64,000 nt of DNA from Pyrinomonadaceae bacterium (GTDB taxonomy: Bacteria > Acidobacteriota > Blastocatellia > Pyrinomonadales > Pyrinomonadaceae), in assembly GCA_021228405.1 (NCBI GenBank), contig JAJQRF010000002.1, positions 372,001 through 436,000 of the forward strand, read 5' to 3'. This document shows, in pieces, positions 16,601 through 34,568 of this stretch. Within the stretch, counting starts at the first letter, position 1, and every line of letters begins with the position of its first letter. The translations under genes and the position numbers were made by a program. The notes beneath the pieces are model-generated. The model saw nothing but the letters and a program-made list of their open reading frames with translations, had not been told where the DNA came from and made no database searches.

Positions 16601-17327
16601 GTTTTTTCATACTCGCCGCCGCGTAGATGATTCGCGAATTGCGGTTATAAGCCATTCCGAAAGTGGTTCCGACCTGATCGGTCGTTGCCAGACTCGTATT
16701 TCCGGGGGAAGAAAAATCGGTTACGGGTGCGCCGCCTGTCGTTCTCGTACTTCCGGCGTGATAAGGAACCGTGAAAACCGCTTCGGTCTGATTCGATTCC
16801 AGCAAACCGTATAACTGTGAGCAAATCTCGGGGTTGTCCTGACAATAATCGCCTGCCCGATTGAGTGCCAGATTTACATTGGCGGTCGTGCCGTCATTGA
16901 CGAATTGAACGGTCGATCCGGCATCTGTCGTGCTTCCGCCAGAAACCGAATCCGTGCTTCGCGCCGAAGGCAAATAACCCGCCGGCAAAGTTGTAAATTC
17001 GACACGGTAAGGTCCGGTTCCGGTCGCGTTCAACGTGTAAGTTCCGTCGCTCGCGGTCGTTGCCGTGCCGCGTGAAGACCCGCTTGCGTCGTAGGCGGTG
17101 ACGGTAACGTTCTGAACGCCTTTATCGATTGCCGTCGGATTAGCGGTCGTTCCGCCTGAGGTATTAAAAACTCCGTTTCCGTTGAAATCGTTGAAAACTC
17201 GTCCGCTGATCGCGCCTGAGGCTTGCGTTTTCCATAACGTGGCAAACGGTGATGTAAATAAATAGATTCCGAGCAGCAAAGTCAAAAAGACAATAGCCGA
17301 TTTGCTCACAAAAGATTTTTCTTTCAT
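10611..17327 (-). CDS. giant surface protein: SdrD-B-like modules plus gingipain-like C25 peptidase domain
   Basis: Encodes 2238 residues with a Sec signal (FLTLLLGIYLFTSPFATLW). The first SdrD-B-like module (about 35-155) begins SGRVFNDFNGNGVF. About 170-640 form a beta-rich, possibly propeller-like region. Four or five further SdrD-B modules (VGNRLWKDLNGNG, LGNRVWFDTDNDG, LSGVVWNDMG, LGNRVWFDTNNDG, LSGTVWADNG) reach about 1400. An FN3-like strand set (ELASFEAFADFNGGVKLKWTT) follows. The C-terminal 350 residues resemble peptidase family C25: candidate His2116 in TYSGHG and Cys2149 in MTCLNGY. AGGAG precedes the ATG. Expected role: cell-surface adhesin-protease. No type IX secretion tail is visible. 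Confidence 0.85.
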   Translation of the reverse strand: MKEKSFVSKSAIVFLTLLLGIYLFTSPFATLWKTQASGAISGRVFNDFNGNGVFNTSGGTTANPTAIDKGVQNVTVTAYDASGSSRGTATTASDGTYTLNATGTGPYRVEFTTLPAGYLPSARSTDSVSGGSTTDAGSTVQFVNDGTTANVNLALNRAGDYCQDNPEICSQLYGLLESNQTEAVFTVPYHAGSTRTTGGAPVTDFSSPGNTSLATTDQVGTTFGMAYNRNSRIIYAAASMKKHAKFGPNGTGAIYQINRGTGAVSLFADINMIFGANTAGANPHNTADYNTDNGNATWDAVGKVAFGGMAISEDMAFLYVMNLANRTLYKIPTSGALNTTTISTAAFPTTGVPNCANASDVRPFAVTYYESQLYVGAVCSADVSDSPADLRGYIYQVNPATLVFNATPVLNFLLNYPRLEVDPNAPADWLAWRTNFSNLPTQTNFIYPQPMLTDIDFDNGNLIISMRDRNGDQTGYNNASNPADAAQLRKGITGGDILRACGNPTSGWTLESNGRCGGIGGSPQNTGEGPGEGEYYYQENYHPNGNPHDEVGNGAAMQLPGHNVMVSSIMDPPYLPNDNIYDSGGFRWFDNATGAQNRAYLAYLTGDFGKANGIGNTVPLCDAAPIEVGNRLWKDLNGNGAQDPHEPGISGATVRLYNAANTAIATAVTDANGEYYFVGATAADSNTTDNVGQVNGRISPNTSYQIRFDLAANYAANGVLNGFILTTANATAQAGDDDSNDSDASNVANPTGSPAGTYPVISFTTGTAGTNNHTLDVGFQSFSLGNRVWFDTDNDGTIDATEVGISNVSVSVFLDADNNNVPDTIASPIATLTTDSTGYYRFDGLRAGNYIVRINSTNFASGGALYGYQSSATTGTDPDTTVDSNDDGLNPADLNNPLYATNGVLSNNVVLGPGSSEPTGETDLGTLGQGNLDNLTNLTVDFGFYRLGLSGVVWNDMGAGALYNNAVFDTATETGRSGVTVRLYTSAGTEIPVGADGVLGTADDASGGMTTNSGGGYAFNGLAPGDYVVRITPPSGVMSSLINVVAPDPDNNTVNDDNGTPGSGVTAGLIVSLPITLAPNTEPTIVNATATTLNPTVDFGLIYNYSLGNRVWFDTNNDGRINSGEVGLANVSVSLFTDGNADGAPDTPATPLNTATTDASGYYRFDTLAGGTYVVRIDPANFANGAVLAGYQNTTGNVTGDVDSTSVNSGENGINPPTAGNSVQTNGILSNTITLGPGTTEPTAEADVQASGQGSLDNQSDMTVDFGFYRTCLSGTVWADNGGGGNSNNGILNAGELTSPGVRVQLYDSTGNEILVGADGILGTSDDAVNGMQTNTSGNYSFCGLIPGQYRVVVVPSGGTSSTPSSTNPDDNVDNNDDGTPGSGSFAGRVVSGLVTMTPGNTGALGNTAVTNSTGLTSNPTVDFGFFLPPTSVELASFEAFADFNGGVKLKWTTGGEADNLGFNIYREIDGKRELLTSSPIAGSALRSLANSAATGDSYSWFDPKGTPDAVYYLEDLDLEGNANLHGAFVPTLTFSGISENTNSKLLAEINETNTSSRQFDLIENSSVNAKPKKNAKAQAKIAAQNGVKISVDHDGWYRVSAEQLQSSGFDLNSNFLNWKLFANGIEVPIKINSDYSIEFFGRGTDTPSTDRQVYYLVNGDSAGQRVRGVKGGRIGQTPTVSSFANTAKLQDKTIYASGILNGEAENWFGALIMASAPTAQNLTVYNPDPNGQARLSIKLQGLTTADHSVSLKFNELDLGTVNYTLYANQQFDFDIPMSSVREGANQIVLRSVGGNTDISVVDSISLNYARQYKAQNNRLRFTVPAGQSVKVSEFLSDIVEIYEIRNGTVSEQLETEVEKANSIRSINLMPANTDRELLLIGSSQAESVLEVAPNEPSDWKNAANRADFVIITPKILKASAERLAAHRNGQGLLTKVVLVEDLYDEFTFGAHSPEAVKRFFQAAKGWLTKPQFALLFGDSSYDMRGYLATVDRDLIPTKMVDTFSMETASDAWLADFNNDSVEDIGLGRIPVITQTEADRVVDKLIRYDQQSSTQRSNLFVSDAGFDTGINIVRNTLPNNVSSTLISRATMTDAEMRSQILQRFNESPTVVTYSGHGTPTLWTNANVLRADDASILANQNLSFYMFMTCLNGYTHGENGDSLAETMLKSENGAVAVWTSSAVTFLDGQIPVSQYVTGQLFQQKPPRLGNILRLGKLNTPDLYVRQTWLLIGDPTIVVR

Positions 17328-20243: not shown

Positions 20244-22112
20244 ATGTCAGCAAAACTTGGGGAAATCCTTGTCCGCGAAAATCTGATAACAGCACAACAA
20301 TTGCGTGAAGCGTTGGAATACCAGCGCAGTCACGGCGGACGTTTAGGATCAAATTTAGTAAAACTCGGGATAATTTCTGACGACGTGATAACCGCCGTGT
20401 TGTCGCGTCAATACGGCGTTCCATCGATAAATCTCGAACTTTTCCAGATCGAAGAATCAACGATCAAACTCATCTCGCACGATGTCGCCTTGAAATATAC
20501 GGTTCTGCCCATTTCCAAAGTCGGTGCCACACTGACGCTGGCAATGGCTGACCCGACCAATGTGTTTGCGATGGACGACATTAAGTTTATGACCGGACTT
20601 AATGTCGAACCCGTGATCGCCTCAGAAGCTTCGATTCAGGCATCGGTCGGCAAATATTACAGCGCATCCAACCAGATCGAAATTTTCGATTTTGCCTCGA
20701 TTGGCGAAGTTGAAAAGATCAGCGCAAAGATCAGCCGCAACAACGGCAAAGCGAACGGCAACGGGAACGGTAATGGAAACGGAAACGGAAACGGTGCCGG
20801 AACCGCCGAAAGATTGCAGGAAGGCGATCTCGATGTTTCGCTCGATCATTTCAAATTTGCCGATCAGGAAAGCGGAGATTTTGAAGTTGTCGAAGATAAC
20901 GATGAGATCGATCTGGCGGAGCTGGCGCGCGCCAGCGAAGATGCGCCGGTCGTTCGCCTCGTAAATGTTCTGCTCGTTGACAGTTTAAGACGCGGCGCGT
21001 CCGACATTCACGTCGAACCGTATGAGAAAGATTTTCGCATCCGCTTTCGTATCGACGGCGTTTTATATGACATTATGCACCCGCCGATGCGTATGCGCGA
21101 CCCGCTCATTTCGCGTTTGAAGATTATGTCGAAGCTCGACATTTCCGAAAAACGCCTACCGCAGGACGGTCGTATCAAAATTAAAGTAAAGATCGACAAC
21201 CGTTCGCGCGAATTGGATTTCCGTGTTTCGACGCTTCCGACGCTGTTCGGCGAAAAGGTCGTGCTTCGTCTGCTCGATAAAGACAAATTGATGCTCGATA
21301 TGACCAAACTCGGTTTTGAAGAGCAAAGTTTGCAAATTTTCCAGCGCAATATTTCAAAACCATACGGAATGGTTTTGGTGACAGGTCCGACGGGTTCGGG
21401 AAAAACGAACACGCTTTATTCGGCATTGCAGGCTTTGAATACGCCGGAAACCAACATTATGACGGCGGAAGACCCGGTCGAATTTAACCTTCACGGCATC
21501 AATCAGGTGCAGATGAAGGAACAGATCGGTCTGAATTTCGCCGCCGCGCTTCGCTCATTCCTTCGCCAGGACCCGAACATCGTGCTCGTCGGCGAAATCC
21601 GTGACTTTGAAACGGCAGAAATCGCCATCAAAGCCGCGCTCACGGGGCACCTCGTCTTATCGACACTGCACACGAACGACGCTCCTTCGACCATCTCGCG
21701 TATGGTCAATATGGGAATCGAGCCGTTTCTGGTGGCAACGTCGGTCAATATCATTCAGGCGCAAAGACTTATTCGCCGAATCTGTAAGGACTGTAAAGAA
21801 GAAGTCCACGTTCCGCCCGAAGGTTTGGTCGAGATCGGCTTTTCGCCCGAAGAAGCACAGACCATTAAATCCTACAAAGGAAAAGGCTGCAACACTTGCA
21901 ACGGAACGGGTTACAAAGGTCGCGTCGGTCTATACGAAGTGATGGAAGTAACGGACGAACTGCGCGAATTGATCATTATCGGCGCAAGTGCGATCGAATT
22001 GAGAAAGAAGGCGGTCGAACTCGGAATGATCACGCTTCGCCAATCGGGTTTATATAAATTGCGTGAAGGAATTACGACGATCGAGGAAGTCGTCAAAGAA
22101 ACGGTTTTGTAA
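20244..22112 (+). CDS. pilB: type IV pilus assembly ATPase PilB
   Basis: Encodes 622 residues. An N-terminal MshEN/GspE-N domain (LGEILVRENLITAQQLREAL) covers about 1-150. A low-complexity Asn-Gly linker lies near residues 168-185. The secretion ATPase follows: DIHVEPYEKDFRIRFRIDG, Walker A GPTGSGKTNT, Asp box, Walker B ILVGEIRD-type (LVGEIRDFETAEIA), and His box. A tetracysteine zinc site (CKDCKEEV and CNTCNGTGYKGRVG) marks the extension motor PilB rather than the retraction ATPase. It drives pilus polymerisation at the inner membrane. First gene of the operon; a near-consensus promoter lies upstream. Confidence 0.95.
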   Translation: MSAKLGEILVRENLITAQQLREALEYQRSHGGRLGSNLVKLGIISDDVITAVLSRQYGVPSINLELFQIEESTIKLISHDVALKYTVLPISKVGATLTLAMADPTNVFAMDDIKFMTGLNVEPVIASEASIQASVGKYYSASNQIEIFDFASIGEVEKISAKISRNNGKANGNGNGNGNGNGNGAGTAERLQEGDLDVSLDHFKFADQESGDFEVVEDNDEIDLAELARASEDAPVVRLVNVLLVDSLRRGASDIHVEPYEKDFRIRFRIDGVLYDIMHPPMRMRDPLISRLKIMSKLDISEKRLPQDGRIKIKVKIDNRSRELDFRVSTLPTLFGEKVVLRLLDKDKLMLDMTKLGFEEQSLQIFQRNISKPYGMVLVTGPTGSGKTNTLYSALQALNTPETNIMTAEDPVEFNLHGINQVQMKEQIGLNFAAALRSFLRQDPNIVLVGEIRDFETAEIAIKAALTGHLVLSTLHTNDAPSTISRMVNMGIEPFLVATSVNIIQAQRLIRRICKDCKEEVHVPPEGLVEIGFSPEEAQTIKSYKGKGCNTCNGTGYKGRVGLYEVMEVTDELRELIIIGASAIELRKKAVELGMITLRQSGLYKLREGITTIEEVVKETVL

Positions 22113-22123
22113 ATGGAGGAAGT

Positions 22124-22936
22124 ATGATTAGGGCAATCGCATTATCATTAGCTTTGTTGATCGGTATCGGCACGATCGTGCCGCTCGCTACCAATTATGC
22201 GGAAGCAGGTCCGCGTAAACATCGCAAATACAAACAGAAAAAGAAAAAATTCAAAAAATATTCAAAAGCCTGGTGGCGCGAATACCGCAAAAAGAAAAAA
22301 CGTCAGCAAGCTATTGCGGCTCGCAAACGCGCTTTGCGTCTGCGGCAGATCAGACTGGCAAAAGCCGCGCAGGAAAACGGCAAATCTGACGTTTTCGCCA
22401 GACCGACGGTCGTGAAATCGCCGAAAGCGGCTGATGATTCGACGGAAGCGGTTTTGCCGACCGGCGAAAAAGCTCCGCAAGGCTGGAAAAAAGCAGAGGC
22501 AACGTCGGGCGAAGTTCAGTTTCGCGTTGACGACAATAACGGTTCGCAGATCGGTTCGGCTTCCATTTCGGTAGTCGGTCCGGCAATGGGCGACGACTCG
22601 TCAACCGGACGCAACAAAACGCTCGCCGGAGTTCCGCAGGCTTCTTTACGCCGCACCGTGATCGACAAAATGATTCGTGAAAACGGCTGGGTCGTGAATG
22701 ATTATCAGAAAGACCTTGGCGGTAAAAAGGTTTACGTCGTGGTTGCGCAATCGCAAGGCACGAACGGCGGCGTTCAATCGAGAATTTTCTACTTCACCGA
22801 AGTCGAAGGACGCATTTACAGTGTTGCCACCAATGCTCAGACCGAAGATGCCGAACGGTTAGCGGAAGAATCGGAAAAAGTCATCAATTCGCTGCAAAAC
22901 CGCGTTCGCTCGGTTCAGCAAGCCGCGAAAGAGTAA
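22124..22936 (+). CDS. very basic exported protein inside the pil operon
   Basis: Encodes 270 residues with a signal peptide (MIRAIALSLALLIGIGTIVPLATNYAEA). A strikingly Lys/Arg-rich stretch of about 70 residues follows (KYKQKKKKFKKYSKAWWREYRKKKK split over several runs), then an acidic linker. The C-terminal domain is about 150 residues (EVQFRVDDNNGSQIGSASISVVGP, IFYFTEVEGRIYSVAT). GGAGG lies five bases before the ATG, 11 bases after pilB. Position suggests a pilus-related envelope role, perhaps binding an anionic polymer; I know no family. Confidence 0.65.
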   Translation: MIRAIALSLALLIGIGTIVPLATNYAEAGPRKHRKYKQKKKKFKKYSKAWWREYRKKKKRQQAIAARKRALRLRQIRLAKAAQENGKSDVFARPTVVKSPKAADDSTEAVLPTGEKAPQGWKKAEATSGEVQFRVDDNNGSQIGSASISVVGPAMGDDSSTGRNKTLAGVPQASLRRTVIDKMIRENGWVVNDYQKDLGGKKVYVVVAQSQGTNGGVQSRIFYFTEVEGRIYSVATNAQTEDAERLAEESEKVINSLQNRVRSVQQAAKE

Positions 22937-22953
22937 TTAACAATTCAACTTTA

Positions 22954-22995
22954 AGCGTCAACTGTGTGCGGTTTCGTTCGCAGACGGTTGACGCT
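22954..22995 (+). promoter_or_regulatory. intercistronic hairpin before pilT
   Basis: AGCGTCAAC (22954-22962) pairs with GTTGACGCT (22987-22995), with an inner GTGCG/CGCA-type extension. No T tract follows, so it is more likely an mRNA processing or stability element, or an attenuator, than a full terminator. Confidence 0.55.
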
Positions 22996-23015
22996 CCGCT
23001 CAAAAATACCAAGCT

Positions 23016-24215
23016 ATGAATTACGAACAACAGCAAAACGCCGAAATGCAGATCAATTTGCCCGACCTTCTGCGAAAGATGACCGAAATGGGCGGTTCCG
23101 ACCTGCATTTAACTACGAATTCAGCACCGCAAATCCGCGTTCACGGGCATCTTTCACCGCTTCCCGGCTTCCCTGTATTAACTCCTGCCGATACGAAACG
23201 TCTTGCTTATTCGGTTTTAACCGACGCGCAAAAACACCGTTTTGAAGAAAATCTCGAACTCGATTTTTCTTTCGGATTGAAAGGAATGTCGCGCTTTCGT
23301 GCCAATCTTTTCAATCAGAAAGGCGCAGTCGGCGCAGTTTTCCGCGCGATTCCGTATGAGATCAAATCCTTCGACGCTTTAGGTTTGCCCCCTATTGTTT
23401 CGGATTTATGCAAAAAACCGCGCGGATTGGTTTTAGTTACGGGACCGACCGGTTCGGGTAAATCGACAACCCTTGCGGCGATGATCGATAAGATCAATAT
23501 CGACCGTCACGATCACATTTTAACCATCGAAGACCCCATCGAATTTCTTCATAATCATAAAAACTGCATCGTTAACCAACGCGAAGTCGCCGCCGATACG
23601 CACGGTTTCGGCGCGGCTCTCCGCACTGCACTGCGCCAGGACCCCGACGTTGTGCTGGTCGGCGAAATGCGCGATCTGGAAACTATCGAAATGGCTCTCC
23701 GAATTGCCGAAACAGGTCACTTGACCTTTGCCACGCTTCACACAAACTCAGCCTATTCAACCATTAACCGTATCATCGATGTCTTCCCTGCCGCCCAGCA
23801 AGCGCAGGTTCGCACACAGCTTTCGCTCGTTCTCGAAGGAATTATGTGTCAGGCTTTGCTGCCGAAATCGACGGGCGACGGACGCTGTATGGCACTCGAA
23901 ATTCTCGTGCCGAACGCCGCTATCCGCAACCTGATCCGTGAAGACAAAATTCACCAGATTTACTCGATGATGCAAACCGGACAGGACAAATTCGGGATGC
24001 AGACCTTCAATCAATCGCTCGCCACGCTTTATCACAAACGACAGATCACGCTCGAAACAGCGATGCAGCGTTCGTCAAACGCCGACGAACTCAAAGAACT
24101 TATCGATCGCGGTTCCGGCATCAATCAATCATATGGCGGACAAGCCAAGCCGATGGGCGGTCAGAGTCCGTATATGCAAGGTCGCCCGATCGGACAGCGT
24201 CCGCCGGTTCGTTAA
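23016..24215 (+). CDS. pilT: type IV pilus retraction ATPase PilT
   Basis: Encodes 399 residues. It has the compact PilT layout with no MshEN domain or zinc site. The PAS-like N-terminal domain holds MTEMGGSDLHLTTNSAPQIRVHGHL. The ATPase core has Walker A GPTGSGKSTT, Walker B DVVLVGEMRDLETIEMAL, and the AIRNLIRE motif (here NAAIRNLIREDKIHQI) that is diagnostic of PilT retraction motors. The Gly/Gln-rich tail (YGGQAKPMGGQSPYMQG) is longer than usual. It depolymerises pili during twitching. Part of the pilB operon. Confidence 0.95.
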   Translation: MNYEQQQNAEMQINLPDLLRKMTEMGGSDLHLTTNSAPQIRVHGHLSPLPGFPVLTPADTKRLAYSVLTDAQKHRFEENLELDFSFGLKGMSRFRANLFNQKGAVGAVFRAIPYEIKSFDALGLPPIVSDLCKKPRGLVLVTGPTGSGKSTTLAAMIDKINIDRHDHILTIEDPIEFLHNHKNCIVNQREVAADTHGFGAALRTALRQDPDVVLVGEMRDLETIEMALRIAETGHLTFATLHTNSAYSTINRIIDVFPAAQQAQVRTQLSLVLEGIMCQALLPKSTGDGRCMALEILVPNAAIRNLIREDKIHQIYSMMQTGQDKFGMQTFNQSLATLYHKRQITLETAMQRSSNADELKELIDRGSGINQSYGGQAKPMGGQSPYMQGRPIGQRPPVR

Positions 24216-24247
24216 TATTTTTTAATTTGACAGGAGTCTAAAGAGAA

Positions 24248-25480
24248 ATGCCTACATTTGTTTATAAAGGTAGAAATCGTTTGAATGAAATGGTTTCCGG
24301 CGAAAAAGAAGCCGCAAGCCAGGACGAACTTCGTGCGCTTTTACGCCGCGAACAGATCGTTGTCACCCAAGCTTCGGAAAAAGGACGCGAAATTTCCATT
24401 CCGAAACTTGGCAGAAATAAGAAAGTAAACGCCAAAGAATTAGCCGTTTTCACGCGTCAGTTTTCGGTTATGATCGATGCCGGTTTGCCGCTCGTTCAAT
24501 GTTTGGATATTTTGGCTGAACAACAGCAAAACGCTTTCTTCAAAGATGTGTTGCGGCAAGTTCGCCAAAACGTCGAAGAAGGTTCGACACTGCACGCCGC
24601 GCTCGAAAAACATCCGAAGGTTTTCGACAATCTCTACACGCATATGGTCGAAGCCGGAGAAACGGGCGGTGTGTTAGACCTTATTTTACAACGTCTTGCG
24701 ACCTTGATCGAAAAAGTCGTCAAACTCAAACGAAGCATTGTTTCCGCGTCAATTTATCCCGCCGCGGTGATTGTCGTGGCAGTCGCGGCAGTCGCGATCA
24801 TTATGGTCGTCGTTATCCCGCAATTTGAACAAATCTTTCTCGGACTCTTGGGACCGGGCGAAGCCTTGCCGCTCCCGACGCGAATCGTTATGGCGATCAG
24901 CGGATTTCTTGCCGGTTGGGGCGGTCTGGCAATTCTCGCCGCACTTATCGGCGCAGGTGTCGGCTTAAAGTTTTACTACAAAACCCCGAAAGGTCGCTGG
25001 AATATCGATACAATATTACTAAAAGCCCCGATTTTCGGCGCAATTTTAAGAAAAATCGCAGTCGCAAGATTTTCGAGAATTCTCTCGACTCTTCTTTCTT
25101 CGGGTGTGCCGATTCTGCAATCTTTGGAAATTACCGCAAAAACCGCCGGAAACATCATTATTGAAGACGCAATCTTGAAAGTCCGTGCCGGAGTCGAACG
25201 CGGTGAAAGTTTTGTCGAGCCATTGAAAGCAACCGACGTTTTCCCGCATATGGTCGGACAAATGGTCGGAGTCGGTGAACAAACCGGTGCTCTCGACGCA
25301 ATGCTCGGAAAAATAGCCGATTTTTATGAAGACGAAGTAGACTCCGCAATCGCCGATTTGTTGGCAATGATCGAACCTGCTCTAATCGCCTTCTTAGGTG
25401 TCACAATCGGTTCAATTGTTATTTCAATGTATCTACCGCTGTTCACTCTAATCGGAAAACTCGCCGGAGGAGCGAAATAA
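24248..25480 (+). CDS. pilC: type IV pilus inner-membrane platform protein PilC
   Basis: Encodes 410 residues with two T2SSF domains. It shows ELAVFTRQFSVMIDAGLPLVQCLDIL and, in the second half, KIAVARFSRILSTLLSSGVPILQSLEI, the standard duplicated pattern. Membrane segments include SIYPAAVIVVAVAAVAIIMVVVIP, GLAILAALIGAGVGL, and the C-terminal MIEPALIAFLGVTIGSIVISMYLPLF. GAGTCTAAAGAGAA precedes the ATG. The protein anchors PilB and PilT to the assembly platform. It is the last gene of the operon. Confidence 0.95.
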   Translation: MPTFVYKGRNRLNEMVSGEKEAASQDELRALLRREQIVVTQASEKGREISIPKLGRNKKVNAKELAVFTRQFSVMIDAGLPLVQCLDILAEQQQNAFFKDVLRQVRQNVEEGSTLHAALEKHPKVFDNLYTHMVEAGETGGVLDLILQRLATLIEKVVKLKRSIVSASIYPAAVIVVAVAAVAIIMVVVIPQFEQIFLGLLGPGEALPLPTRIVMAISGFLAGWGGLAILAALIGAGVGLKFYYKTPKGRWNIDTILLKAPIFGAILRKIAVARFSRILSTLLSSGVPILQSLEITAKTAGNIIIEDAILKVRAGVERGESFVEPLKATDVFPHMVGQMVGVGEQTGALDAMLGKIADFYEDEVDSAIADLLAMIEPALIAFLGVTIGSIVISMYLPLFTLIGKLAGGAK

Positions 25481-25699: not shown

Positions 25700-27034
25700 T
25701 TAGGAACGATTGATACCATATTTGTTCAAGTTTTTATAAAAAGTAGATCGGGGAATTCCTGATAATTTACTCGCTCTTACTATATTTCCGTTCGTTTTAT
25801 CTAAAGCCATCTGAAGATAAGATTTTTCTAATCTTTGGATTGCTTCATCCAGAGTTTCGTTGTCAGGGTTAAAAGATACCGAGCCGGATTGTTTTTTTTC
25901 TTTTATATAGACAGACTCCTGAAGTATAGCCTGGCTCAAAATATTATTAGTAGGATATGCGGCAGCTTTTCTTATAATACTCCTTAATTCTCTGACGTTT
26001 CCATACCAATGATAGGCAAATAAATCATCTAATCCGTTATCGGGTAAATTCAACGATGCTTTATGTTCTTGATTCCATTCATTAACAAAATATTCTGCAA
26101 GTAGGGGAATATCTGCCTTTCTTTCTCTTAGTTTTGGTAAGTCTATGGTCATTCCCTTGATTCTGTGATATAAATCAAGGCGAAATCGTTTTTCATCGCA
26201 TTCTATATCGAGATTGCGGTTTGTTGCCAGAATAATTCTTGCATTAATATTTTTCCATTTATTTCCTCCAACGGGACGAATTTTTTTTTCATCCAAAACT
26301 CGTAAAAGTTTTGCCTGTAAGTGCAAAGCCAGTTCACCTATTTCATCTAAAAAAATTGTTCCTTCTCCCGCGCTCGTTAATAAACCGTCGCGCCTTTTTG
26401 CATTTGTAAATGATCCCTGCTCGTGTCCAAACAATTCACTCTCAATTAATTCAGGGTTTAATTCGGCAATATTTATTGAAACAATTTCATTCAGCCTACG
26501 GTTACTTTGCCTGTGAATCTCTCGCGCAACCACCTCTTTTCCTGTTCCGGTTTCGCCTGTTATCAAAACATGTTCATTTAGAGGCGCAAGGGATGTAATA
26601 TCTTTATAAATCCTTTGCATCGGCTGTGTTGCGCCGATTAAATTACCGCATCTGGAAAGTTTAAAGTAGCGGCTCAGGATAAGTTGGGCTAAAATTCTCT
26701 CGGCTATGTGAAATGGAGTTTGGGATTCGGGTGCAATGATGTGAGTCGCCCCGCAATTGTATATTATTTTTCGATCTTGATTAGTGGTTTTTGAAGCACA
26801 AACGATCAAAGGAGTTTGTTCATCGATCAAATCGCGTAATTGCCTGGTGCGCTCTCCAATCGTCGAAACATCACGTTCAGAAGATACAAAAAAAGCTTCA
26901 CGACATCGGGTAATTTCAGACTTTTCACGCATTTGAGAATCAAATAAAACCGGATGAATATTGACCTTTTCTTCTCGGAGTCGATTTATGATCTCAGTTA
27001 GCGGAACTTCTTTAGAAGCAAATATTTTAATCAT
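25700..27034 (-). CDS. sigma-54-type AAA+ regulator with pseudo-receiver and altered GAFTGA loop
   Basis: Encodes 444 residues. Residues 1-125 resemble a receiver fold (IIYNCGATHIIAPES at the end) but lack the phosphoacceptor aspartate: the expected beta-3 end reads AFFVSSERD. The AAA+ domain has Walker A GETGTGKEVVAREIH, Walker B GTIFLDEIGELAL and an arginine-finger region FRLDLYHRI. The GAFTGA loop, which contacts sigma-54, reads GSFTNA. The C-terminus is a Fis-type HTH (NIVRASKLSGIPRSTFYKNL). It is the last gene of the island, 8 bases after the CHAT-like gene. It may control the island or its targets; whether it still works with sigma-54 is open. Confidence 0.85.
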   Translation of the reverse strand: MIKIFASKEVPLTEIINRLREEKVNIHPVLFDSQMREKSEITRCREAFFVSSERDVSTIGERTRQLRDLIDEQTPLIVCASKTTNQDRKIIYNCGATHIIAPESQTPFHIAERILAQLILSRYFKLSRCGNLIGATQPMQRIYKDITSLAPLNEHVLITGETGTGKEVVAREIHRQSNRRLNEIVSINIAELNPELIESELFGHEQGSFTNAKRRDGLLTSAGEGTIFLDEIGELALHLQAKLLRVLDEKKIRPVGGNKWKNINARIILATNRNLDIECDEKRFRLDLYHRIKGMTIDLPKLRERKADIPLLAEYFVNEWNQEHKASLNLPDNGLDDLFAYHWYGNVRELRSIIRKAAAYPTNNILSQAILQESVYIKEKKQSGSVSFNPDNETLDEAIQRLEKSYLQMALDKTNGNIVRASKLSGIPRSTFYKNLNKYGINRS

Positions 27035-27042
27035 TTTTCAAA

Positions 27043-28503
27043 TTACTCAGACAAAAAAATTTGCGGTTTGTATTTCTTTGTCAGGCTTTCCATATTTTCG
27101 CATTTCTGACGAAAGGCGGTTAAAATTTCTCTTTGATCAGCATTGGTTGTTATAGCTGCAGGAATAACGACCTCCGCTAATGACAGACAAAACTTCATAG
27201 AAACTTTTGAATTAAAACCTATAGCTGTTTTAACACCGGCTTTTACAAATTTTTTTGCAACATCTCTTGAGTTGCAGGAAAAGAAAAAGGATAATCCGAT
27301 CCACTTTCTTTTTCCTTTAAATGATCTTAACCATTCATTGGTTGCTTGATATAAACCGCCAAATTCTTGAAGACCTTTTTCATTGCCGTGTCCAAAATGA
27401 GTCCAAATTAATAAATCTTGCGGTATTGACGACAAATATTCATCCAGATTCTTTGGCGTTGCCGAAGGAAGGACATAAAGTGGGTAAATCTGTTTACCGA
27501 ACAAATTATGTATTGCCTGTGATGTTTGTGAATTAAGGAGATAATTATAAGAATGAAAATCGGATGGATCAAAACTGCTTGTCGTCAAACATTGTAATTT
27601 ATTTGACGGAAAAATTTCCTTCTTGAAGATATTCAAATTATTGTGACAAACTGATTCTTCTAATTCGTCGAAAGTAGAGTTAACCGACGGAATGCCAGCA
27701 GAAACAGGCACTGTAAATTGTGGAGCTAGTCTTTGCAAAAAATAGTGCAAATCACAAAAACCCGAAAACAACAGAACATCCGCATTCAAGTCGCGGGCAT
27801 ACTGTAGCAGATCGGGATTTGGATTGATTGAGCTTACGGCAAAAATGATTTTTGTTTTCGGACTCTCTCTGATTTTATGGTTAACTTGGTTTTTACAATT
27901 GAGCCAAAAACCATCCGTAATAACCATCAGATTAGAAGCATCACCGTTATCTTTCCTCAAAAAATTGCATAAAAAATCTTCTAATAATCCACAACTCAGT
28001 GGAATATAATACTCCCATTCGATATATTCATTTTTTAATTTATTCCAAATTACATTTCTCTGTCGTGAGTATTTTGCAAGTTCGATTAATTTATCAACAG
28101 GAATATCTAATAAGTCGTCATAGGACGATTCAAGATTGATCTGAAGAATATCATCTATACCGGAGTTGTTGATTATTTCAAACCACGGATTCAAAATTGC
28201 CTCGTTGACTACATATTGCGGTAATGTTCCCACTCTCCGGTCAATTACCAAATAAATCCTTGCTGAAAACCAAGTTTTTTGTTTAATTACTTTAAGATAC
28301 TCTTCCAACGTTTCACCTTCGAGCCACGGCGAAGAAAGAATTAAGAAAATTTCTAGTGAGCAAGGCTTGTGTTTATTTTTGGAATATTCAACTATTTTAT
28401 TTGAACATTCCCAATTACTACTATCGAACTGTTCAGTGAAATCAATCCATTCCCCGAACAATTTGAGTGAATTGCTGTATACAATTTTGACACCGATTTT
28501 CAT
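27043..28503 (-). CDS. CHAT/caspase-like putative protease
   Basis: Encodes 486 residues from ATG at 28503; an in-frame TTG at 28527 would add 8, and neither has a clear ribosome site. The N-terminal 340 residues are unassigned, with alpha/beta-type stretches (EIFLILSSPW, KIIFAVSSINPNPDLLQYARDL). The C-terminal 130 residues match the CHAT pattern: LLIWTHFGHG (His372), then WIGLSFFFSCNSRDVAKKFVKAGVKTAIGFNSKV (Cys410), the His-Cys dyad of caspase-fold peptidases followed by the typical 'aG...aig' strand. No membrane segment. It is fourth in a signalling operon, so cleavage triggered by a phosphorelay is the natural inference. Substrate unknown. Confidence 0.75.
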   Translation of the reverse strand: MKIGVKIVYSNSLKLFGEWIDFTEQFDSSNWECSNKIVEYSKNKHKPCSLEIFLILSSPWLEGETLEEYLKVIKQKTWFSARIYLVIDRRVGTLPQYVVNEAILNPWFEIINNSGIDDILQINLESSYDDLLDIPVDKLIELAKYSRQRNVIWNKLKNEYIEWEYYIPLSCGLLEDFLCNFLRKDNGDASNLMVITDGFWLNCKNQVNHKIRESPKTKIIFAVSSINPNPDLLQYARDLNADVLLFSGFCDLHYFLQRLAPQFTVPVSAGIPSVNSTFDELEESVCHNNLNIFKKEIFPSNKLQCLTTSSFDPSDFHSYNYLLNSQTSQAIHNLFGKQIYPLYVLPSATPKNLDEYLSSIPQDLLIWTHFGHGNEKGLQEFGGLYQATNEWLRSFKGKRKWIGLSFFFSCNSRDVAKKFVKAGVKTAIGFNSKVSMKFCLSLAEVVIPAAITTNADQREILTAFRQKCENMESLTKKYKPQIFLSE

Positions 28504-28538
28504 AGTTAAAGCAATTGGAAATACCAATGAGAAAAAGT

Positions 28539-30191
28539 TTATATTTTTCTGCTAAAGGGTAAAACTATTTTGATTTTATTTCCCATTTTTTCAATTAGGT
28601 CGTCAGAACATTCCGCTATTTGCCCCTGATATTTTTCTTCGATGAGTATTTGTGATAAATACAAAGCTAGATATAATCCGGGTTTGTGTTTTTCATCGAT
28701 GATAGGAACCGCCTGAGTAAATGGCTTAAACAAATCTTTGCGTAATTCTTTTGGAAAGCGGTAACTGTTATCTTCAAATATGATCGCTGACGTTTCATCA
28801 GTTTCAAAGCATTTAACCGTTATCGAGTATGTGTAATTTGCAGGAATTTCAAATTTACGCCGCACAAACCAATTTAATATTCGTAGAGTGATAAGCAAAA
28901 AGTCTTCTTTTGCACCTTTAATCTCACAATCGCCTTCAATGAAAAAGTTAATATTATTTAATTTATATTCCGAAGAGAGTTCTTCCCATGCAACTTTAAG
29001 CAATTCCGTCATCTGAAAAATTTCTAAATTTTCAGATGAATAGTTTTTATTGGAGATCGGTTCCAGAAGTCTGCCAGTTTGATATAAGTCTTCTGCTAAT
29101 GCTCTGATCGTCCGATATGTCGGATTTTCTAAATTCTCACCTGCTAAAGCAGCATTTTCAAGAATAAAAAGTTGTTCCTGTCCGACCTTTTGGCAAAAGG
29201 TCGCCATCTTATCGATCGTCGTTTTTCTTTCACTGTCATTTCTATGCCAACGGGCTATTATCTCGCTTAAAAAGGCGATGGCAGTCGGATTCACATACTT
29301 ATTTAATAATTTCCCTAATTCTTTAGGTGATTCCGAATAGGGTTCATTGCTATCTAAAAGACCGACCGTTAGACGAAAAGCTCCAGCTAGAGGCAATGAT
29401 AGAAAAACCGCATCCTCTAAACTTTTAATTTCGCTACCATTTAAGTTGCTTTTATCGGTTTTGAGAAGACCAATCATTGATTCGTCTAATATGAACGGCT
29501 CTGAAATGTCGGCATTCGTAAACATAAAAGATAATATCTGCTCATAAACTATATCTTCTCCAAACGGCAAATTTGCCGTTCCTCCCAGACAATTTTGGGC
29601 GTGTAACGGTTCGGTAAGACTGTTGATTCTCGAAAGCAGTAACAGAAAAGGTGTCCCCAAACAGGCTCTGAATTCCTCTCCAAGAATTTCCCGACAGAAA
29701 TTTTCGTAAAGCTCAGTTTCAGTTTGACTTACCTTTACGACTTTCTCTATTTTATCCGCCAGATTTTTACTGTTGGATAAAGTCCTTTTTATAGACAGGG
29801 CGCGAAGGTGAGTGATAATTTTTTCATCCGGACTATCGCTTTTTCGTAAATACGAAGCGACACCTAATTTGAGGGCTTTTTCATAATATTCCAATATGTG
29901 TGGATAAGCCGTAAAAATTATAACTTCCGGCTTCATAAAATCGCTTCGCGTTATATTTTTTTGAAAATATTCTATAATCAGGTCTGCGCCGGTAACGCTT
30001 CCCGCGAGCGGATCTTTCTCGAGATTCATATCTACCAGACATACATCGAAATCCCCCTCACCATTAAGTATTTCTCGGGCTTTTTTGACGGTTCCGGCAA
30101 CATCTACTAAAAAGCCTCGCGATTCGAGCTTCATTCTTATTCCGTCCGTCGATCTATCCTCAATAATTAAAAATCTTTTAGTCTTTTTCAT
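28539..30191 (-). CDS. response regulator with receiver domain and degenerate GHKL-type C-terminus
   Basis: Encodes 550 residues. Receiver domain 1-130 is complete: E11/D12, phosphoacceptor D54 (CLVDMNL), T94 (FTAY) and K117 (YLRKSDS). A middle region of about 250 residues is unassigned and helical. The C-terminal part resembles a histidine-kinase ATPase fold (LLITLRILNWFVRRKF, EDNSYRFPKELRKDLFKPFTQAVP, GLYLALYLSQILIEEKYQGQI) but lacks the N-box asparagine pattern and DxGxG, so ATP binding is doubtful. AAGGA lies upstream of the ATG. It is probably phosphorylated by the upstream kinase; its output may be binding to the CHAT-like or AAA+ protein. Confidence 0.8.
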   Translation of the reverse strand: MKKTKRFLIIEDRSTDGIRMKLESRGFLVDVAGTVKKAREILNGEGDFDVCLVDMNLEKDPLAGSVTGADLIIEYFQKNITRSDFMKPEVIIFTAYPHILEYYEKALKLGVASYLRKSDSPDEKIITHLRALSIKRTLSNSKNLADKIEKVVKVSQTETELYENFCREILGEEFRACLGTPFLLLLSRINSLTEPLHAQNCLGGTANLPFGEDIVYEQILSFMFTNADISEPFILDESMIGLLKTDKSNLNGSEIKSLEDAVFLSLPLAGAFRLTVGLLDSNEPYSESPKELGKLLNKYVNPTAIAFLSEIIARWHRNDSERKTTIDKMATFCQKVGQEQLFILENAALAGENLENPTYRTIRALAEDLYQTGRLLEPISNKNYSSENLEIFQMTELLKVAWEELSSEYKLNNINFFIEGDCEIKGAKEDFLLITLRILNWFVRRKFEIPANYTYSITVKCFETDETSAIIFEDNSYRFPKELRKDLFKPFTQAVPIIDEKHKPGLYLALYLSQILIEEKYQGQIAECSDDLIEKMGNKIKIVLPFSRKI

Positions 30192-30213
30192 TTTACTGTT
30201 GTCCTTATCTTAA

Positions 30214-33200
30214 TTAAATTTTTACCGCTTTAGGGAAACCTAATCTAAACTCTGTATGACCGGCTTTCGATAATTTCAATTCTATGTGACTGCCGTTTTC
30301 AACCAAGCTTCTTTTAACTAAGTACAAGCCCCAGCCTGTTCCGTTGGATTTTGTAGTTACACCAAAATCGAAAATATTATGTTGTATTTCCATAGGGATT
30401 CCGTTTCCGTTATCGGTGAAAATACAGACAATCGAATTTTCTTCTTCTCTTGCATCAATTTGAATTAACCGTTTGTCGGATTCACAGAATTTCAGAGAAT
30501 CTTTCGCATTACCTATTAAATTGGCAAGTGATAAAGCAACAATGTGAAACGGAACATCTATTGTATACTTAGGATCTAAGTTTATTTTTATTTCAATTCC
30601 GTTTTCAGTTAAGATCGAATGGAACAAGTTTTCACAATCTTCAGCCGCCTTCAATAAAGAGCAAGGTCGTTCACTGCTAAAGCGGGTAAAATCGATTATT
30701 GCATTCGTAAGCTCAAGCATTTTCTCACTCGAAGCGGATAAATCATCAATCAACTTTTCATACTCAGCAGTTTTTTTCATCGCCGTATTTGCATCCTTAT
30801 CCATTGCGCATAATTTACCGTATAGAATAGCTTCGTGTAAGGTTGAAAATCCGGACTCACGCTCACGCATCATATTAATAAGCTGGTGCATGATAGTCGC
30901 GCTGGTAATAGATGTAGTTAACATTACCTGATAATTGATATTTTCAAGATGTTTTTGTTGAGCTTGCAGTTTAGTAAGCACTTTAGCGGCAAGATCGCCT
31001 AATCTTAGCAAGTAAATTTTCCAGGGCGATTCAAAACTTAACTCAAAACCGAAGCGTGGATTTTGAACGCCGAACCAAAGCATTTCATCGCGCTGAGGAA
31101 GACGTAGTGTAATTATGTGATGAGTGTATGTATCTTTTACAGGATTTGCACAAAGAACTTTGTTTTCCTGCATTGTGAGGATTTCCCAATTAGCTTTAAC
31201 AAGTTGAATGTGTTCTTCTTTACCGAGAAAATCGCCCATATTTTCCGGATTTGTTCCGACGGTCCAGAATAATTCCGCTTCTGAAGCAGATTTTTTTATT
31301 GTTCTGAACCAATCATTGATGGAGAGCGGTTCCCGACTCAATTCCAAACCTAACTGATTTAAGTTTTTATTCAGATAATAACCAGCCGAATTTACAATAG
31401 TATCGGAAACGACGGCAGCTATAGCCCGCCGATTTTGTGAATAAACCCCCAAAGTCGGAAAAGCTAAATCGTCTTCATCTTTTTTAATAAGTAAGTGCAT
31501 TCTGCCGAAAGGTCGCTGGACTTCGATCTCATCGCTTTCTTTCATCTGCACCTCTAGTGTTGATGACTTTACCTTCAAATTTTTATCTTGTGATATATAG
31601 GTCTTCTTGTTGAAATTCTTGCGATGTAAATCAATTATGTCTTCCAAATCGTCTTTGTATTCCGGTGCGGAAATGTAATATTCCTTTATCTGAAACCCTA
31701 TATCGCCCTTAATCACAATCCCCAAAGGAGATAGAATTTCGTAAATATTCTCGGTAATTTTCACTATCGTGTCCGAACCGTTTTTTAGCCCATTGCCTTG
31801 CAATTTAGCGCATTGATAAGTCGCCTCTTCGAGAGCCATCGCTTCGCGGTGAGTTTGAACAATTATCGAGATTCTTTCCGCGTAATGAAACAATTGCTGA
31901 ACAACGACGGTCATTTGAGCGGCAAATTCGTTCATCTCTGCTTCCAAACAACCTATGATTGCCCCGTTATATAAAATTCGCGACCTGACCTGACATCTTT
32001 TAAGTTTATTAGTAAATAAGAATTTCGACTTGGTAAAAATAAACTTTATTAAAGATTCGCCGTCGTTTTTCTCGGGCAATTCATTTTCGAACATTTTCTT
32101 TATCTCGGGAAAGTTCTTGAGCGGTTTGCGGGAATTATTATGTTTAGCAGACTTACTCCATTTTATTACTAAAACTTCAGAAGCGTTCACTTTCGGGAGT
32201 CTGATATACAAAGTTACGGACTCGGCGTGCAATCCCTCTCCGATAGCACGTGAAACACTATCACCTGTAAGAAAAGGCTTTCTTCGATAATTGACTTCGT
32301 TAACCGTATCTCTGACGTATCGAAAAATTTCCAAGCCCCTGTAAGACAAATAGTAGATCGCCAAAAATAAAAAAAGATTGCCTGCCGAGGAAATATAATA
32401 CAGACCGTTTCGATACGGTTCGATCGAAGCCATATCAGGCAAAATTTCAGTTGCGTTGAAAATCACGATCGCTAACTGAGTACAAACACACCAGGGAAAG
32501 ACTATGCCGCACATATATGATATTAGGTTTCTTTTAAGGAAAAAGAGATTCATTGATAAAGCAATCCCCAGAAAAAACAGGCTGGCAACCGTAAGAAGAG
32601 CATCCGGTATCATAGAAGCTATTCTCAGTATTTCGCAGTTGTCAGGAAAAAACAGTGCGGCGGCGGAAATCACTAGTGCGGAGGTTCCCCAAATCTTAAA
32701 AGCAGAAGGCAATCGTTTTACCTGATGATAAAACGAAATTAAAATCTGTTCGTAAATTGAGTTGAAAATCTTACATATAGTCGCGAGAACACCTATCCTT
32801 TCGTCCTTACTCTTCTCAATATCATCTTTATCCTCCTGACTTTCAACCTTTTTTTCTTCCGGTTTCATATTTTTCCCGAATAGTTCAAAGGTTGCCAATA
32901 ATACCAACCAGTTATTTACAACGGACAAGCCAATGGTAATGAAGCTGATAATCTTTTCGATAATGAAATAACTTGTAGGCGTAATATATTGGTAAACTTC
33001 CTGTTTCGGAACTTGTTTCTCAAAAATGATTCTATTTGCTTCGTTTATATCCGCAATATAATTAAGACCTGCAAATAAGAAACTCATCAGAGCAAATGTG
33101 GCAAAAAACCAGCCTAAGAGTCGAACCCACCGCCCCGGAATCAATACTCGAGAATTGGTATAAAGAGTTAAAGCACAAATCAAATAGCCCGTGCCTACAA

Positions 33201-33222
33201 TTATCTGAATATTAGAATCCAT
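30214..33222 (-). CDS. polytopic membrane sensor histidine kinase
   Basis: Encodes 1002 residues. The start at 33222 has AGGAAGGA eight bases upstream inside the end of the previous gene; the frame runs open to 33273. About eight membrane helices occupy residues 5-330. Then come GAF-like regions (to about 760), an unusual dimerisation helix with candidate phosphoacceptor His779 (ATIMHQLINMM), and an HATPase domain with N box LIGNAKDSL (N905), G1 TDNGNGIP, F box FDFGVTTK and G2 GTGWGLY. It therefore looks catalytically competent. It likely senses a membrane or envelope signal and phosphorylates the next protein. The ligand is unknown. Confidence 0.85.
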   Translation of the reverse strand: MDSNIQIIVGTGYLICALTLYTNSRVLIPGRWVRLLGWFFATFALMSFLFAGLNYIADINEANRIIFEKQVPKQEVYQYITPTSYFIIEKIISFITIGLSVVNNWLVLLATFELFGKNMKPEEKKVESQEDKDDIEKSKDERIGVLATICKIFNSIYEQILISFYHQVKRLPSAFKIWGTSALVISAAALFFPDNCEILRIASMIPDALLTVASLFFLGIALSMNLFFLKRNLISYMCGIVFPWCVCTQLAIVIFNATEILPDMASIEPYRNGLYYISSAGNLFLFLAIYYLSYRGLEIFRYVRDTVNEVNYRRKPFLTGDSVSRAIGEGLHAESVTLYIRLPKVNASEVLVIKWSKSAKHNNSRKPLKNFPEIKKMFENELPEKNDGESLIKFIFTKSKFLFTNKLKRCQVRSRILYNGAIIGCLEAEMNEFAAQMTVVVQQLFHYAERISIIVQTHREAMALEEATYQCAKLQGNGLKNGSDTIVKITENIYEILSPLGIVIKGDIGFQIKEYYISAPEYKDDLEDIIDLHRKNFNKKTYISQDKNLKVKSSTLEVQMKESDEIEVQRPFGRMHLLIKKDEDDLAFPTLGVYSQNRRAIAAVVSDTIVNSAGYYLNKNLNQLGLELSREPLSINDWFRTIKKSASEAELFWTVGTNPENMGDFLGKEEHIQLVKANWEILTMQENKVLCANPVKDTYTHHIITLRLPQRDEMLWFGVQNPRFGFELSFESPWKIYLLRLGDLAAKVLTKLQAQQKHLENINYQVMLTTSITSATIMHQLINMMRERESGFSTLHEAILYGKLCAMDKDANTAMKKTAEYEKLIDDLSASSEKMLELTNAIIDFTRFSSERPCSLLKAAEDCENLFHSILTENGIEIKINLDPKYTIDVPFHIVALSLANLIGNAKDSLKFCESDKRLIQIDAREEENSIVCIFTDNGNGIPMEIQHNIFDFGVTTKSNGTGWGLYLVKRSLVENGSHIELKLSKAGHTEFRLGFPKAVKI

Positions 33223-33227
33223 AAAAT

Positions 33228-34568
33228 TTATCCTTCCTGTTTCCAAGTATCTGAATTCGACCCTATTTGCCAACTAGCCAGAGTAACAACAGGATTATTC
33301 CATTCATTAAGTCCGGCGTGAACAACATCGGTTTGCGAATCATTTTTGATCCGGACAAAAGTCGGGCGTAGAAATCCTTTATCCGTCCCCGTTTCCAGTT
33401 CCACTAAAAAATCTTCCCAACTTTCCACAGAGTCTTTACTATTCGGAAGACATAGTAATCTTCCCCAAGTCCCGCTATTCAAATACAAACCTTTTCCGTC
33501 TTTGACAAGGTAAATTTTCGCCGAGTGCGTATGTCCGTGAACTACTGCCGATATTTGTTGCGAGTCGATGTATTTATTTAAGAAATCAGACTTAAACTTG
33601 TTTCTTTCCGGGACTTCGATAGCAAATGAAGAATCCTGCTCCGAAACGGTTTTTAATTGTTTGATCAATTTTCTTAAATCTTTTTTCGTCGATGTTCCGG
33701 GATTATTAATCTCTTGATTGCGCCAGACTGAAAATTCATCGGTCAGATCGGCATGGTGATATGTATCCCCTAAGATCATTTCACTATGTAAAGTCATAAT
33801 TAAATTTCTTTTCAACCAATTGGTTCCAGCGGAAATTCCATTAAGCAATACTTTCTGCAGCATTCGACGTTGTTCAATGTTTAGCTCTTGCCGAGCAAAC
33901 GTCCAAGCCAACGGGAAAGTCGCTTCGGTAATCGGTTTCAGAAGGTCTATCCAAGGATATTTCTTACGTAGGGGATTTAGATTTTCTACCAGATAGCTTC
34001 CGGGAGGCGCGTTATAAGAGTCGTTTTCAATCAAACGGCTTGAGTAATTTATCGAATTTTGGAGTTTTCCGTAATCAATTCTGTTCCAATCGTCGAATAA
34101 ATCTCCGTGTTCAATTAAAATGCACTTTTTTCCAACACTAACCGTTAGTGCATTTCCACTTACTAGCCAGCGAATATTCGGAGAAAAATTATTCAGCCTT
34201 AATCTGTCTTCAAAAACTGCCTGAACTTCAGGTAAGGCAACTTCAGGATCGTGATTGCCGCCGAGAATAAAGAGTTGATGTCTGTTTGAGTTGGTAATTT
34301 TGGCTAACGCATCGAAGACTTCGGGATGATTTTCGATAATTTTTATAGCTTTCTGAGATGATTCTTTTAGGGAAGTAATTTCACCTCCATTTTCTCCGAC
34401 CAGAAAATCAAATATGTCGCCATTAAGAACCAAAAAACTGTCTTTGGCTTCTGAATATACCCAAGTTAAAAATTCAGCCAGTTCAGAATCCGCTCGAAAT
34501 AAGCCGCAATTTCTTTCAGCAGCCAGATGCAAATCACTAATAACTATTAAATCTGATGTTTTTCTCAT
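33228..34568 (-). CDS. calcineurin-like metallophosphoesterase
   Basis: Encodes 446 residues. All hallmark motifs are present: VISDLHL (DxH), LNGDIFDFL (GD), LGGNHDPE (GNHD) and VVHGHTHSAKIYL (GHTH), which bind a dinuclear metal centre. A long insertion between GNHD and GHTH (about 200 residues) sets it apart from UDP-2,3-diacylglucosamine hydrolases and Mre11. No signal peptide, so cytoplasmic. It is the first gene of the five-gene island, 5 bases before the kinase start. The substrate (nucleotide second messenger, nucleic acid or phosphoprotein) cannot be told. Confidence 0.85.
   Translation of the reverse strand: MRKTSDLIVISDLHLAAERNCGLFRADSELAEFLTWVYSEAKDSFLVLNGDIFDFLVGENGGEITSLKESSQKAIKIIENHPEVFDALAKITNSNRHQLFILGGNHDPEVALPEVQAVFEDRLRLNNFSPNIRWLVSGNALTVSVGKKCILIEHGDLFDDWNRIDYGKLQNSINYSSRLIENDSYNAPPGSYLVENLNPLRKKYPWIDLLKPITEATFPLAWTFARQELNIEQRRMLQKVLLNGISAGTNWLKRNLIMTLHSEMILGDTYHHADLTDEFSVWRNQEINNPGTSTKKDLRKLIKQLKTVSEQDSSFAIEVPERNKFKSDFLNKYIDSQQISAVVHGHTHSAKIYLVKDGKGLYLNSGTWGRLLCLPNSKDSVESWEDFLVELETGTDKGFLRPTFVRIKNDSQTDVVHAGLNEWNNPVVTLASWQIGSNSDTWKQEG

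Follow-up and report, generated by a model that had tools for sequence, protein, structure and literature searches.

Gene content of the locus

The window, by which we mean the entire 64,000-nucleotide stretch of DNA analyzed here, contains five closely spaced genes on the minus strand of positions 25700-34568, as determined from the ORF map and Pfam. In the order of transcription, they encode a metallophosphoesterase, a histidine kinase, a receiver protein, a CHAT-like protease, and a sigma54-type activator, with gaps of 5, 22, 35, and 8 bases between successive genes on this single strand. The features of the locus are listed below with the evidence for each in parentheses.

33228..34568, minus strand: calcineurin-like metallophosphoesterase with conserved metal-site motifs (Pfam, 4.4e-09; alignment)
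30214..33222, minus strand: membrane histidine kinase, HisKA-like plus HATPase (Pfam; alignment; hydropathy)
28539..30191, minus strand: receiver plus C-terminal degenerate HATPase-like protein, 550 aa (Pfam; alignment; PDB receiver matches)
27043..28503, minus strand: CHAT-like (caspase-fold) cysteine protease gene, 486 aa (ORF; fold; orthologues in four other genomes)
27691..28503, minus strand: N-terminal two-lobed alpha/beta region of the protease, presumed regulatory domain (orthologue model)
27046..27612, minus strand: predicted CHAT/caspase-like catalytic domain, residues 298-486 from the ATG (VIA-align to 8tl0)
27388..27390, minus strand: codon for the predicted catalytic His372, within GHG (sole invariant His of the family)
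27274..27276, minus strand: codon for the predicted catalytic Cys410, within FSC (sole invariant Cys of the family)
25700..27034, minus strand: sigma54-dependent (NtrC-type) AAA+ activator with a divergent N-terminal domain (Pfam, 1.1e-59; alignment; motif scan)

The protease and its predicted catalytic dyad

A sequence-only reading of this DNA had placed a CHAT/caspase-like protease at positions 27043-28503, and these coordinates are correct, with the gene lying on the minus strand and encoding 486 residues. The open reading frame runs from an ATG at 28503 to a stop at 27043, and the plus strand there is full of stop codons; an in-frame upstream TTG at 28527 is an alternative start that would yield a protein of 494 residues. 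The same reading had described a His/Cys dyad layout followed by an AG-AIG strand, and both elements are present: WTHFGHG and FFFSCNS place His372 and Cys410 38 residues apart, and the strand after the cysteine reads AGVKTAIGF. A whole-genome search revealed four orthologues of the window protease in the same class, and the resulting family sample of five orthologues from one class was aligned. The orthologues are 23-24% identical to the window protease, and the five copies have in common W-x-x-x-[GS]-H-G and F-x-x-C-x-S, the latter followed by [AS]Gxxx-A-[IV]-G-F. The window protease carries 8 histidines and 11 cysteines in total, and across the whole-protein alignment just one of each is invariant, namely His372 and Cys410. 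Because no other His or Cys is invariant at about 24% identity, the dyad is more than chance. The spacing between the two residues is 38-52 residues in the five copies, and the corresponding spacing in TPR-CHAT/Csx29 is 42-43 (H585/C627 and H615/C658; PMC9729208, PMC10028731).

An AlphaFold2 model of the protease, built from the five sequences, has an overall pTM of 0.49, with pLDDT mostly about 70-91 in the catalytic part (the last ~140 residues). Foldseek with the full-length model returned SAVED-CHAT first and caspases next. Using VIA-align, we found that the CHAT domain of SAVED-CHAT (8tl0) aligns with protease residues 298-486 counted from the ATG, which are residues 302-490 in the 490-residue numbering, with a Z of 17.8 over 180 residues at 3.2 A; among the matches listed, the second-best row reaches a Z of 12.6. 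The further rows listed are legumain-type, gingipain, C11 peptidase, GPI transamidase, caspases, and Craspase, and the range for CHAT, legumain, gingipain, C11, and caspases is Z 11-18 over 149-184 residues. All of the matches listed belong to clan CD. The fold prediction and fold search, which the sequence-only reading had put forward as a check on its proposal, thus came out in its favor, with a caspase-like fold for which CHAT is the closest match. For the last ~190 residues of the protease, the prediction is a CHAT/caspase fold, and the alignment to 8tl0 implies that His372 and Cys410 would lie side by side in space.

Judged by sequence, the CHAT-like domain is divergent and falls under Pfam's cut-off. 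The window protease had no match in Pfam, NCBIfam, or PADLOC, and the CHAT profile PF12770 matched two of the five copies with a best E of 0.051, below the Pfam gathering score. An hhalign comparison of the protease with eight true CHAT domains encoded elsewhere in its genome was weak (E 0.0014, probability 17%), although the register at the Cys was correct, with the Cys motif placed on LSACET. We call the protease CHAT-like because the fold and dyad fit, the PF12770 cut-off was missed, and the CHAT profile comparison was weak. No Pfam repeat match revealed TPR repeats before the CHAT-like domain, and the model of the N-terminal region is alpha/beta. A sequence search of the protease against the PDB returned saposin matches only, which we judged to be chance. 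The window genome also has 16 PF12770 matches (best E 3e-71), most of which fall in long open frames (about 830-1200 codons), and none of them is the cassette protease.

The N-terminal region was modeled from the orthologue in genome G096, which yielded two alpha/beta lobes (pLDDT 79, pTM 0.82). Among solved structures, none matched this isolated model at Z 8 or more, and its best rows, which were PRPP synthetase, APOBEC, and the tandem receivers of PleD, had Z 6-7, which is noise level. We considered SAVED/CARF as the identity of the N-terminal ~270 residues and did not adopt it: the architecture and the full-length Foldseek alignment to SAVED-CHAT chains, which spans both halves of the protease, suggest such a domain, whereas the isolated domain does not confirm it. 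SAVED is not among the matches listed for the isolated domain, an absence that excludes nothing, and Pfam SAVED had no match anywhere in the window genome, where the control was silent too.

The receiver protein and histidine kinase

The receiver domain occupies residues 8-122 of its protein, with the phospho-acceptor Asp54 encoded by codon 30030-30032, and the alignment shows that Asp12, Asp54, and Lys117 are kept in all five copies. By our own reading of the alignment, the usual N-box and G1 pattern is no longer present in the C-terminal HATPase-like domain, and the receiver protein therefore probably serves as an adaptor or a pseudokinase, not as a kinase. No recognizable DNA-binding domain was found in this protein, and therefore its target is likely a protein. 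The kinase has a Pfam HATPase match (2.7e-12) with motifs that are kept in the orthologues, and an invariant His-Gln (codon 30886-30888) at the H-box position; hydropathy indicates 5 TM helices in the window copy and about 6-7 in the orthologues. Together, the alignments and Pfam identify the two proteins as two-component partners, with H, N, and G motifs in the kinase and an Asp pocket in the receiver.

Conservation and distribution of the cassette

Full-length profiles detected the kinase, receiver, and protease in the same five of 162 genomes of the class, where the three genes are adjacent and occur in one copy each, and none elsewhere; in all five, the protease gene immediately follows the receiver gene. 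Among 396 genomes sampled over the phylum, there was no full-length match to the receiver or protease without its partners. Because the trio is confined to the same five genomes, we conclude that kinase, receiver, and protease are the core of the cassette. The two-component operon context that had been claimed for the protease is therefore a conserved cassette (5/162 class genomes) and not a chance neighborhood. The carriers represent five genera in three families, and with 5 of the 53 genera of the class the distribution is patchy. What is shown here is the anatomy of the cassette: its genes and their conservation, the predicted fold, the conserved residues expected for catalysis and phosphorylation, and strict co-occurrence. 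Two other candidates were set aside, as the receiver-only match in G207 is an ordinary NtrC and the weak activator-like match in G384 is an unrelated region.

Scanning genome contigs with the single protease sequence revealed no relative, and scanning them with the family alignment returned only two MAG contigs, which have the same sizes as loci already found. The plasmids and viral contigs searched contained no relatives of the protease. PADLOC returned no match for the protease family, the window's receiver protein, or the phosphoesterase, and nine of the ten flanking genes tested were also without a match; its matches to the activator cover only the common AAA/HTH part.

The sigma54 activator and phosphoesterase

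An NtrC-type activator gene lies directly downstream of the protease in four of the five loci. Its Walker A/B motifs are intact. At the GAFTGA loop, two orthologues have GAFTGA itself, another has GSFTGA, and the window copy has GSFTNA, an altered loop with which the window activator may not drive sigma54. A promoter scan of the window found 17 sigma54 sites versus 21 expected and therefore no excess. The possibility that the N-terminal domain of the activator is a receiver was rejected, as hhalign against the cassette's receiver gave a probability of 0.4%; this domain had no match anywhere in the G090 genome.

The metallophosphoesterase lies beside the kinase in three of the five loci, the window included. 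Two distant full-length relatives of it (27-29% identity) adjoin other proteases: one in G020 (L044:1813-5254) is next to a 674-aa protein with a Peptidase C25 match above cut-off, and one in G090 (L045:1942-5048) neighbors a trypsin-AAA_35 protein in which the trypsin part is similar to Avs1b. These arrangements suggest that phosphoesterase-protease pairs are recurrent, hinting at a conflict or immune setting for the cassette. Calcineurin-like phosphoesterases, caspases, and trypsins are recurring parts of conflict systems (PMC7159879, PMC8195603), which, along with the protease-adjoining relatives, lends plausibility to a role in conflict or death. In the cassette locus of G090, which has neither an activator nor an adjacent phosphoesterase, the kinase gene is closely preceded by a gene for a trypsin-like protein (L008:7606-8583, weak Nal1_C/Trypsin_2 match).

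Proposed mechanism and alternatives

We propose that the locus is a signaling cassette ending in a caspase-like protease, in which a signal passes from kinase to receiver to protease and a specific partner is cut, a model that we give about an even chance of being correct. The signaling steps, the substrate, and the immune or stress role of the cassette are those that we infer. A cue sensed by the membrane kinase would lead to its autophosphorylation, and the phosphate would then be passed onto Asp54 of the neighboring receiver/degenerate-ATPase protein. As an adaptor, the receiver protein would open or assemble the protease via the N-terminal ~270 residues, and the protease would cleave a single specific partner or a small number of them. 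Foremost among the candidate substrates would be the sigma54 activator, whose gene follows after a gap of 8 bases, and cleavage would turn proteolysis into transcription or into arrest or death. Where present, the phosphoesterase would modulate the output, perhaps through degradation of a nucleotide signal. The protease would need a substrate other than the activator as well, because G090 keeps kinase, receiver, and protease and lacks the NtrC-type gene throughout its genome. The nearest tested precedent is Csx29, which cleaves the sigma-factor inhibitor Csx30 (PMC10028731). We advance more tentatively, as somewhat short of probable, that a two-component phosphorelay directly sets the activity of the caspase-like protease, with the receiver replacing CRISPR, TPR, or STAND sensors; if true, this arrangement would be a bacterial death/immune or stress switch.

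Co-transcription could also be compatible with a kinase that controls expression only. In an alternative that we consider rather unlikely, the two-component pair, along with the sigma54 activator, would do no more than regulate transcription, either of the operon or of genes elsewhere, and the protease would be merely co-expressed and controlled by a ligand through its own N-terminal domain; a nucleotide, as in SAVED-CHAT, would be one such ligand. The top SAVED-CHAT chains from Foldseek align over both halves of the protease in the same sensor-then-CHAT order, and a phosphoesterase able to remove a nucleotide signal is present in three of the five loci, both of which favor this explanation. 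However, the isolated N-terminal model (pTM 0.82) retrieved no SAVED or CARF and had no row of any kind at Z 8 or more, and no cyclase-type gene was recognized in the cassette. Furthermore, a receiver protein that has no recognizable DNA-binding domain must exert its effect via another protein, and the receiver and protease are retained in G090 without the activator.

A different explanation, which we regard as distinctly unlikely, is that the phosphoesterase and protease form a defense or conflict module in which the kinase senses infection or envelope damage and the output is cell suicide, not transcription. Such a module would be consistent with the sporadic presence in 5/53 genera of the class, with the C25-like protease and Avs1b-like trypsin-AAA protein that adjoin the phosphoesterase relatives, with a broken tyrosine recombinase upstream in G015, and with calcineurin-like phosphoesterases and caspases being common conflict-system effectors (PMC7159879, PMC8195603), but PADLOC was without a match for the protease or nine of the ten flanking genes tested, and no copies were found in viral contigs. 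In some conflict systems, caspase-like domains are often inactive (PMC7159879), and the CHAT-like domain could likewise be non-catalytic, serving as a purely structural or scaffold caspase fold. With His and Cys the sole invariant ones in five divergent copies, however, we consider a scaffold role very improbable.

Comparison with known systems

CHAT proteases are known as outputs of RNA-guided or nucleotide-activated immune sensors. In the open-access literature searched, we did not find a CHAT protease described with a two-component operon, and TPR-CHAT genes near a receiver gene have merely been noted (PMC5108060). There is a real chance that the cassette represents a new mode of protease control. 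If true, the kinase-receiver-protease cassette would indicate that the commonest bacterial signaling chemistry can also drive a caspase-like protease, and it would offer a compact system for asking about CHAT-type protease roles outside CRISPR and give two-component systems a new protein-level output.

The closest protein is SAVED-CHAT, the type III-B CRISPR/CBASS protease (8tl0), which shares the C-terminal CHAT fold (Z 17.8, far above other rows), an N-terminal part of ~300 residues before CHAT, and a similar total length. In contrast, the N-terminal part of the cassette protease is not confirmed as SAVED, and a kinase, a receiver, and a sigma54 activator take the place of the Cas10 or CD-NTase partner of SAVED-CHAT. 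Craspase/Csx29, the TPR-CHAT protease of type III-E CRISPR, likewise has a CHAT fold (Z 11.7 to 8d9f), similar His-Cys spacing, and a transcription regulator encoded in the same locus, but the cassette has no TPR or CRISPR effector, and a two-component system replaces the RNA-guided sensor. The SAVED-Lon protease CalpL acts on CalpT in a similar manner to Csx29 on Csx30 (PMC11417357), and CalpL/CalpT/CalpS resembles the cassette in joining a signal-activated protease to a transcription regulator (PMC11417357); however, it uses a Lon protease, a cyclic nucleotide signal, and an ECF sigma factor with an anti-sigma factor. PrsK/PrsR and other histidine kinase/NtrC pairs are of the same general type, with a membrane kinase and a sigma54 activator, although the cassette scores far below their model cut-offs and additionally encodes a protease and the receiver/degenerate-ATPase protein. 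The same kinds of effectors (caspase, trypsin, and calcineurin-like) are employed by conflict systems of the MoxR-vWA type and their relatives (PMC7159879), but the cassette has no MoxR, vWA, or STAND component.

Genomic surroundings

The cassette of the window adjoins pilB/pilT/pilC-like genes (20244-25480). In G015, an apparent tyrosine recombinase remnant (L009:390-1305) lies upstream of the cassette and a PilS/PilR-like pair (L009:11813-15657) lies downstream, and the window and G015 cassettes possibly share an insertion area near pilus genes. The window also encodes a second clan CD protease at 10611-17327 on the minus strand, which is a 2238-aa protein with six SdrD_B-type repeats and a clear C-terminal Peptidase C25 domain of the gingipain type.
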